IMG/VR virus record: IMGVR_UViG_3300021962_000421
Span: 1 to 30,885 of that record
Reading direction: 5' to 3' (one strand)
Source of the DNA: a virus
DNA: 30,885 nucleotides
Of this stretch, positions 1,182-2,086 are shown piece by piece. How positions within the stretch are numbered: position 1 is the first letter of the stretch; each line of letters begins with the position of its first letter. Below the pieces are notes generated by a model. It saw nothing but the letters and a program-made list of their open reading frames with translations. It was not told where the DNA came from and did no database searches. A program made the translations under genes and the position numbers.

Positions 1182-1226
1182 GTGTATATGTGTAGACACG
1201 TTAACAACTAAGCTACTAGCTGTCAA
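1182..1226 (-). promoter_or_regulatory. Candidate sigma-70 promoter with overlapping dyad
   Basis: Reading the minus strand there is a perfect -35 box TTGACA (1221-1226), a 17-base spacer and a weak -10 box TAACGT (1198-1203). Immediately downstream, 1182-1199 is an imperfect dyad with GTGT/ACAC ends that could be an operator. The gene start at 1166 follows within 35 bases. The -35 overlaps the last codons of the upstream zinc-ribbon gene. The -10 match is poor, so this is a suggestion only. Confidence 0.3.
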
Positions 1227-1407
1227 CATCAAGGACAACATAAACACGCTCCCTGGCTATTGCTTTGTCAAAGTCTTTGCAACCAGGACAGTACCACCCC
1301 ACTCTTACCATGTCCTCGGCGTTGATGACTTCTTCAGCCACGCCTCCGCATTTGCATGGTTTGACCGCCATGTCGTCCATTCTGCACCTCTGCTTTTTTT
1401 TTGGCAT
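1216..1407 (-). CDS. Small zinc-ribbon protein (63 aa, or 54 aa)
   Basis: The protein has two Cys pairs (KPCKCGG and YCPGC) separated by about 20 residues, the layout of a small zinc ribbon like those in restriction-alleviation (Lar-type) and other short phage proteins; the function is not assigned. Two starts are good: ATG 1407 with AAGGA five bases upstream, and ATG 1380 with AGAGG six bases upstream. The longer form adds a Lys-rich head (MPKKKQRCR) encoded partly by a run of nine A. The frame stays open further upstream into the structured RNA region, but that part is not convincing protein. The gene begins directly after the RNA ends. Confidence 0.6.
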   Translation of the reverse strand: MPKKKQRCRMDDMAVKPCKCGGVAEEVINAEDMVRVGWYCPGCKDFDKAIARERVYVVLDVDS

Positions 1408-1409
1408 AG

Positions 1410-1858
1410 CTATCCTTTTTCCCCCGCAAACACCCAGAGCCTTGTACACCCCGACGCTTGCGCCCGTATAACGGAGGCCCGAAGACCTGGTACTCAATAT
1501 TACGCCCATCGTCACGATGAGTCGTTCCCCCCGGCTTGACGCTTCTCAGCGCGGAACAGCCGACCACATTTGTACAAGTGTCTCACCGAGGTGTGGTATG
1601 CCCGAAGGCTTTGCGGGTGCCTGGTGTCAAGGAGGGACAGAGCAGGACTATTTCTCGGTTTGACTTCCCATTTCTGGAGCTGGATTTCGGGCGGCAGCTC
1701 GCCATAAGCCAGAGTACGTCAGGCTTTGCCACACGGGGATTTGATTTCGATGAGAGGGGTGTTAAACTACCCTAGTCGGGCGATTGATTACACCACTCAG
1801 ATCGATCTCGGGCCTCCCAAGCCACCGACTTACTTTACCCTTAGTGACGTTTGATTTC
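1410..1858 (-). ncRNA. Large structured RNA, HEARO/omega-RNA-like
   Basis: About 450 bases without a believable gene, visibly richer in G+C than the flanks and dense in inverted repeats. Read on the minus strand: stem 1825-1830 with 1774-1779; hairpin 1807-1821 (six pairs including one G-U); GGUGU at 1790-1794 inside the first stem's loop can pair with ACACC at 1758-1762, making a pseudoknot; hairpins with cUUCGg loops at 1600-1609 and 1476-1487 (the latter with a G-U pair); a GAGA-loop hairpin 1540-1551 inside an outer stem 1524-1528/1553-1557; simple hairpins 1507-1519 and 1464-1474. The wobble pairs become A-C mismatches and the stable loops disappear on the plus strand, so the RNA is minus-strand, co-directional with the genes. 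The pseudoknotted core resembles, from memory, HEARO RNA, the guide RNA of IscB/IsrB nucleases. The class is uncertain; the ends are approximate. Confidence 0.65.
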
Positions 1859-1884
1859 AAGCCCTCGATAAGAGGGCTTTTTTT
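1859..1884 (+). terminator. Hairpin plus T-run, terminator in plus orientation
   Basis: An eight-base perfect inverted repeat (AAGCCCTC / GAGGGCTT, loop GATAA) at 1859-1879 is followed on the plus strand by seven T (1878-1884). This is a textbook intrinsic terminator for plus-strand transcription, although no plus-strand gene precedes it. On the minus strand the same hairpin follows directly after the stop of the 67-residue gene and lies at the 5' side of the structured RNA, where it could instead act as a processing or protective stem. Confidence 0.55.
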
Positions 1885-2086
1885 AATGTCGAATTTGATG
1901 TATACAGAATCGTTCGTATCTACCGCGAACCTCTGGATCTTCGTCGATAAACTTGCCAATGAACATCGCGTAGTATTGCATTGACAATATGATGTCACGA
2001 ACGTCATGATCTAAATCGTAGTAGTTATCGTCGATCCATTGATCCAGATCATCCGGTGATATCAGTTTGAATATTTTATTATTCAT
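1883..2086 (-). CDS. Hypothetical phage protein (67 aa)
   Basis: The ATG at 2086 has GAGAG five bases upstream and overlaps the end of the NinG-like gene by eight bases; a longer frame from 2119 lacks such a site. The product is small, Asp- and Tyr-rich in its first half (DDLDQWIDDNYYDLDHD) and basic at the C-terminus. No family is recognised. It is the last gene of the recombination block before the structured RNA. Confidence 0.6.
   Translation of the reverse strand: MNNKIFKLISPDDLDQWIDDNYYDLDHDVRDIILSMQYYAMFIGKFIDEDPEVRGRYERFCIHQIRH

Follow-up and report, generated by a model that had tools for sequence, protein, structure and literature searches.

Few large structured RNAs lack a known function; among those already explained are ribozymes, ribonucleoprotein scaffolds, and RNA cages. 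OLE RNA is a large ornate RNA located within an operon. HEARO/omega-RNAs are ~300 nt long, contain two pseudoknots, and lie 5' of an open reading frame; in the nexus pseudoknot of the IsrB omega-RNA, a hairpin embedded in S2 pairs just 3' of S2 (PMC9581776). GOLLD and ROOL are about 660 to over 800 nt long and are often found near tRNA islands (PMC12286853). The put RNA of phage HK022 is ~70 nt long with two stem-loops, and putL is located just after an early promoter (PMC9378689).

The window, i.e., the whole stretch of DNA analysed here, is a 30,885-base IMG/VR virus record. Its layout is siphovirus-like and includes genes for a GpA-type terminase, a portal, and the tail. Its recombination and other early genes lie on the same strand as the terminase, portal, and tail genes. 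The intergenic gap at 1384-1882 has a GC content of up to 58%, compared with ~40% around it. A first-pass annotation had assigned 1410-1858 to one large structured RNA. Structured RNA is present over that extent, but the conserved RNA covers 1410-1741, which almost certainly encodes a ~330-nt structured non-coding RNA.

1410-1741, minus strand: large structured RNA, predicted 5' end near 1741 and 3' end near 1410, from a 33-sequence alignment (A2).

Pattern scans of IMG/VR, checked by alignment, identified 64 relatives, giving 65 copies with the window, all of them in uncultured phage sequences. Identity among 32 aligned relatives was 49-76%. The related phage contig L005 retains the RNA region at 72% identity, with neighbouring genes that are unlike those of the window. 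Single-sequence folding energy gave no signal against shuffled sequence (z = -0.04 for the minus strand and -1.48 for the plus strand); it is the comparative evidence, not thermodynamic folding, that separates the region from shuffled sequence. A protein-coding reading was rejected: the 33 homologues, read in six frames each, contained one fully open frame, their lengths vary out of frame, and no single frame is conserved as protein. The claim of a non-coding structured region is upheld by this result and by the fold supported in the homologues.

No DNA match to the large RNA was found among GenBank phages or plasmids, and no description of it in the open literature searched. Rfam 15 contained no matching family, and lenient thresholds gave only low-scoring, chance-like matches on the RNA. 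A pattern scan of GTDB genomes returned two matches, which lacked the second motif and were taken as chance. With no match in Rfam 15 or in the records searched, the RNA is a new RNA family or class; the claim of novelty concerns the RNA family, not its mechanism. The fallback reading of the first-pass annotation, a new large phage RNA, agrees with this outcome. The nearest large-terminase relatives of the window phage are the Roseobacter phages CRP-823, CRP-821, CRP-822, CRP-831, CRP-811, and CRP-406 (58-59% identity), which infect cultured marine hosts; a search with R1, a covariance model covering 136 positions at the 5' end of the large RNA, found no copy in CRP-823, CRP-831, CRP-811, CRP-406, or CRP-821.

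Similar to GOLLD and ROOL, the RNA is large, highly structured, pseudoknotted, phage-encoded, and without a known function. It differs from them in its length of ~330 nt and its location; no tRNA or tmRNA was found in the window or in the related loci searched, and the GOLLD and ROOL covariance models of Rfam gave no match on the window or the relatives. OLE RNA is likewise a large ornate RNA in an operon, but it differs in size and host range, and no Rfam match was obtained here.

The coding strand was assessed with a loop test, which counted hairpins whose loops have four bases and whose stems have three or more Watson-Crick pairs. Hairpins with GNRA or UNCG loops numbered 101 on the minus strand and 0 on the plus strand (shuffled mean, 9.2). 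Within the structure read as the minus strand, there were 83 G-U cells versus 5 A-C cells. The large RNA is the minus strand. A first, plus-strand alignment had yielded a consensus with 19 double-changed pairs, and RNAalifold energies alone left the strand undecided. The plus-strand reading of 1410-1741 was rejected by the loop and wobble tests, and the plus strand was kept for 1775-1885. The elements of the minus-strand structure are as follows, from 5' to 3'.

1707-1725, minus strand: helix H1, AGCC (1722-1725) with GGCU (1707-1710); 93.9% paired, three of four pairs change on both sides.
1690-1703, minus strand: hairpin H2, GGCG(AGCUGC)CGCC; per-sequence stems in most, not all, homologues.
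1695-1698 with 1679-1682, minus strand: H-type pseudoknot PK2, H2 loop GCUG with CAGC; 95.4% paired, one pair changes on both sides.
1667-1678, minus strand: hairpin H3 with an invariant GAAA tetraloop (1671-1674); 97% paired, two pairs change on both sides.
1620-1646, minus strand: hairpin H4, CCUG (1643-1646) with CAGG (1620-1623) and UGUC (1636-1639) with GACA (1625-1628); 100% paired.
1629-1633 with 1413-1417, minus strand: pseudoknot PK1, H4 apical loop UCCUU with the 3' strand AAGGA; 97.9% paired.
1610-1616 with 1424-1430 (3' strand), minus strand: long-range closing helix P1, CCGCAAA/UUUGCGG; 100% paired.
1600-1609, minus strand: hairpin H5, GCC(UUCG)GGC; GNRA loop in several relatives, absent from some clades.
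1539-1552, inside 1532-1563, minus strand: tip of H6 with a GAGA loop, read by eye.
1503-1524, minus strand: hairpin H7; 98.1% paired, six of eight pairs change on both sides.
1475-1488, minus strand: hairpin H8, AGGUC(UUCG)GGCCU; 98.8% paired, four of five pairs change on both sides.
1463-1475, minus strand: hairpin H9, UCCGU(UAU)ACGGG; per-sequence stem, outside the scored pairs.
1403-1415, minus strand: possible 3' hairpin GGAUAGCUAUGCC, overlapping the 3' strand of PK1; read by eye, with a bulge.

Alignment A2 comprises 33 diverse copies, read as the minus strand, in 369 columns. The scored structure, chosen from A2 and per-sequence stems, has 46 pairs, nine helices, and two pseudoknots. 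Across the 33 sequences, 98.1% of its cells are paired. The covariation sought in homologues was found: 28 of the 46 pairs change on both sides, a number reached in 0 of 500 shuffles. When the partner columns were slid by 1-3 positions, pairing dropped to 32-47%; this control is somewhat flattering because the structure was derived from the same sequences. Judged from the alignment, double-sided changes across distant members are stronger evidence than the sliding control.

PK1 connects the H4 loop with the 3' end of the RNA; in the family, this helix has six columns, all with changes on both sides, and the window, with UCCUU/AAGGA, forms five of the six pairs (other variants are GCCCAU/AUGGGC and, in L087 and L097, GGG/CCC). 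In P1, five of seven pairs change on both sides; across distant members, the helix takes the forms CCGCAAA/UUUGCGG, CUGGAUA/UAUCCAG, CCGGAAA/UUUCCGG, and CUGCAAG/CUUGCAG. H4 shows a U-A to A-U switch between clades. H2 is out of register in the alignment and rests on per-sequence stems; across the family, its AGCU loop pairs with a downstream YAGC to form PK2. The H8 loops are mostly UNCG or GNRA, and H9 has UNCG loops in many homologues. The 3' hairpin has a GGGCN/NGCCY stem in most clades (a strict script search missed the window copy) and is missing in L087, L090, L091, and L093.

The minus-strand hairpins described in the first-pass annotation are present, most of them in helices supported in homologues, as are its two cUUCGg loops (1600-1609 and 1475-1488) and its GAGA loop (inside 1539-1552), all on the minus strand. 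The pseudoknot that it had proposed between GGUGU and ACACC falls beyond the bounds of the conserved RNA, and homologues did not show it; the supported pseudoknots are PK1 and PK2.

The same annotation had likened the RNA to HEARO/omega-RNA and proposed an orphan guide that borrows a host IscB or IsrB. The length (~330 versus ~300 nt), the two pseudoknots, and the position 5' of an open reading frame are in keeping with this idea. However, the pseudoknotted hairpin H4 lies 5' of the closing helix P1, not inside it. The HEARO model RF02033 gave no match at gathering or at E ≤ 10 on the window; eight relatives and two sister loci, scanned at E up to 1-2, gave none either. The sequence 5' of the large RNA is conserved within clades and is not hypervariable and guide-like. 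No IscB/IsrB-type gene was seen among the window open reading frames, as had been remarked earlier; the PF14239 (RRXRR) model was silent in 22 carrier records and was silent in its control genomes too. Absence of a nuclease alone does not exclude HEARO because stand-alone copies have been reported. With the model match, guide, and topology all against it, we consider the orphan-guide proposal extremely unlikely.

Model R1 also matched weakly in L006 and L012, at 14 bits, with E values of 0.36-0.44 for the 435 kb searched and about 0.02 when just the two loci are counted. These sister loci (L006:7051-7350 and L012:10701-10960; also in L114, L115, and L116) share the H1 domain, followed by a different body, which is conserved among L012, L114, L115, and L116 and in part in L006. 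The sites in L006 and L012 are comparable in position, and these phages are related to the window by a phosphoesterase. A promoter-like sequence separates the sister RNA from the next gene. From sequence comparison, the sister RNA is probably related to the large RNA through the 5' domain.

The gene that follows the large RNA in the window is listed below; its product resembles that of the neighbour gene in many relatives.

1216-1383, minus strand: first gene downstream of the large RNA, encoding a small protein that carries PCKCG and WYCPGC motifs (open reading frame reading).

In most carriers, the large RNA is directed at a leftward operon that includes genes for a helicase, a primase-like protein, and a small zinc-ribbon-like protein. 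Where the flank was long enough, nearly all homologues have a minus-strand start codon within about 150 nt after the RNA; the distances are approximate, as they depend on the start codon chosen by the script. The minus-strand promoter was not located. The large RNA probably heads the leftward transcript, which would be an early (helicase/primase) transcript. The best overall explanation, at modest confidence, is a folded ~330-nt RNA that heads the leftward operon and acts as a unit.

Heading an early operon is also the arrangement of the put RNA of HK022, and the large RNA might be a processive antitermination RNA of that kind, binding RNA polymerase as a nascent transcript and suppressing termination across the early operon. 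Its site just after a presumed early promoter resembles that of putL (PMC9378689). In contrast to put, with its ~70 nt and two stem-loops (PMC9378689), the RNA here has ~330 nt and two pseudoknots, and the leftward region offers few terminators to suppress: no recurrent intrinsic terminator was found downstream, with just 9 in 150 kb versus 6 on the control strand, a count that covers the intrinsic type. Antitermination is unlikely.

We consider that the RNA may act in trans, a provisional reading that is likelier than control of the neighbouring gene or guidance of a nuclease. It would work as a compact folded body, either as a putative protein scaffold or as an RNA assembly; the RNA is compact, with strong pair-by-pair support and a consistent genomic place. 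Two observations count against action in trans. The same-strand gene abutting the large RNA also fits a cis leader, and the 3' hairpin shares bases with the PK1 strand, with which it may compete; this hints at a possible conformational switch. A cis-acting leader would control the leftward operon, e.g., through exchange between PK1 and the 3' hairpin, in a riboswitch-like or protein-responsive manner. The near-constant 5'-leader position and the presence of the competing hairpin in most clades suit such a leader, but the first leftward gene is of at least six kinds (zinc-ribbon-like, c45, c35, helicase, AT-hook-like protein, and others), a variety that speaks against control of any one particular gene. 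Moreover, no terminator was seen in the gap, four members lack the 3' hairpin, and at the sister loci promoter-like sequence intervenes between the RNA and the next gene. A cis leader is a somewhat unlikely alternative to the trans-acting body.

The remaining part of the gap encodes a second RNA on the opposite strand.

1775-1885, plus strand: small RNA, ~110 nt, GUCGG (1775-1779) with CCGAC (1825-1829); intrinsic terminator at 1859-1885.
1741-1768, plus strand: promoter-like TTGATT-16-TAAACT for the plus-strand RNA; position matches boxes in homologues.

The stem at 1774-1779/1825-1830, earlier taken as part of the core of the large RNA, exists but is the outer stem of this separate RNA. The plus-strand RNA is conserved in most relatives, with an intrinsic terminator in most copies; the usual terminator was not seen in the L033 group. 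L087 and L097 retain the large RNA without the plus-strand element; therefore, the two RNAs are separable. Relatives have TATACT, TAGAAT, or TATAAT at the promoter position, a few bases before GUCGGG; the TTGATT-16-TAAACT sequence of the window was absent from the consensus promoter scan list. The plus-strand RNA faces an Erf/YqaJ-exonuclease/SSB operon in most carriers; the window and the L033 group have convergent plus-side neighbours. Transcription of the large RNA would start in the control region that separates it from the small RNA.

A divergent small RNA, together with the position before the helicase (c7) and primase-like (c14) genes, would suit a replication primer or origin RNA that heads the helicase/primase operon and is balanced by the small RNA. 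However, the small RNA as mapped does not overlap the large RNA, no origin signature was found, and the first 5 kb show no skew switch, so that a primer role appears very unlikely. Tentatively, we propose a new class of trans-acting phage RNA, a double-pseudoknotted body that heads the replication operon. Its 5' domain would be a module that also occurs in the sister RNA, a different large RNA of sister phages, and a small terminated RNA would be made on the opposite side of one control region.

Several further features were noted at these loci. In several clades, e.g., L023 and L089, a palindrome (CACAAnATnTTGTG) lies between the two RNAs and overlaps the plus-strand promoter; it is operator-like and is absent in the window. 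Many copies of the plus-strand RNA have a CUCCUU/CUCCCU-type stretch, which could mask Shine-Dalgarno sites. In L005:6255-6731, a simple-sequence tract holds repetitive open frames that overlap (GYGYGYG and ATATA types). L097:7503-7583 (minus strand) has a RAGATH-1 hammerhead-like match (E 0.0026) whose 39.9 bits fall short of the gathering score of 56.3. At L088:8526-8596 (plus strand), the suhB/mmgR sRNA family matched weakly, with 25.4 bits (below gathering), which would fit an alphaproteobacterial host.
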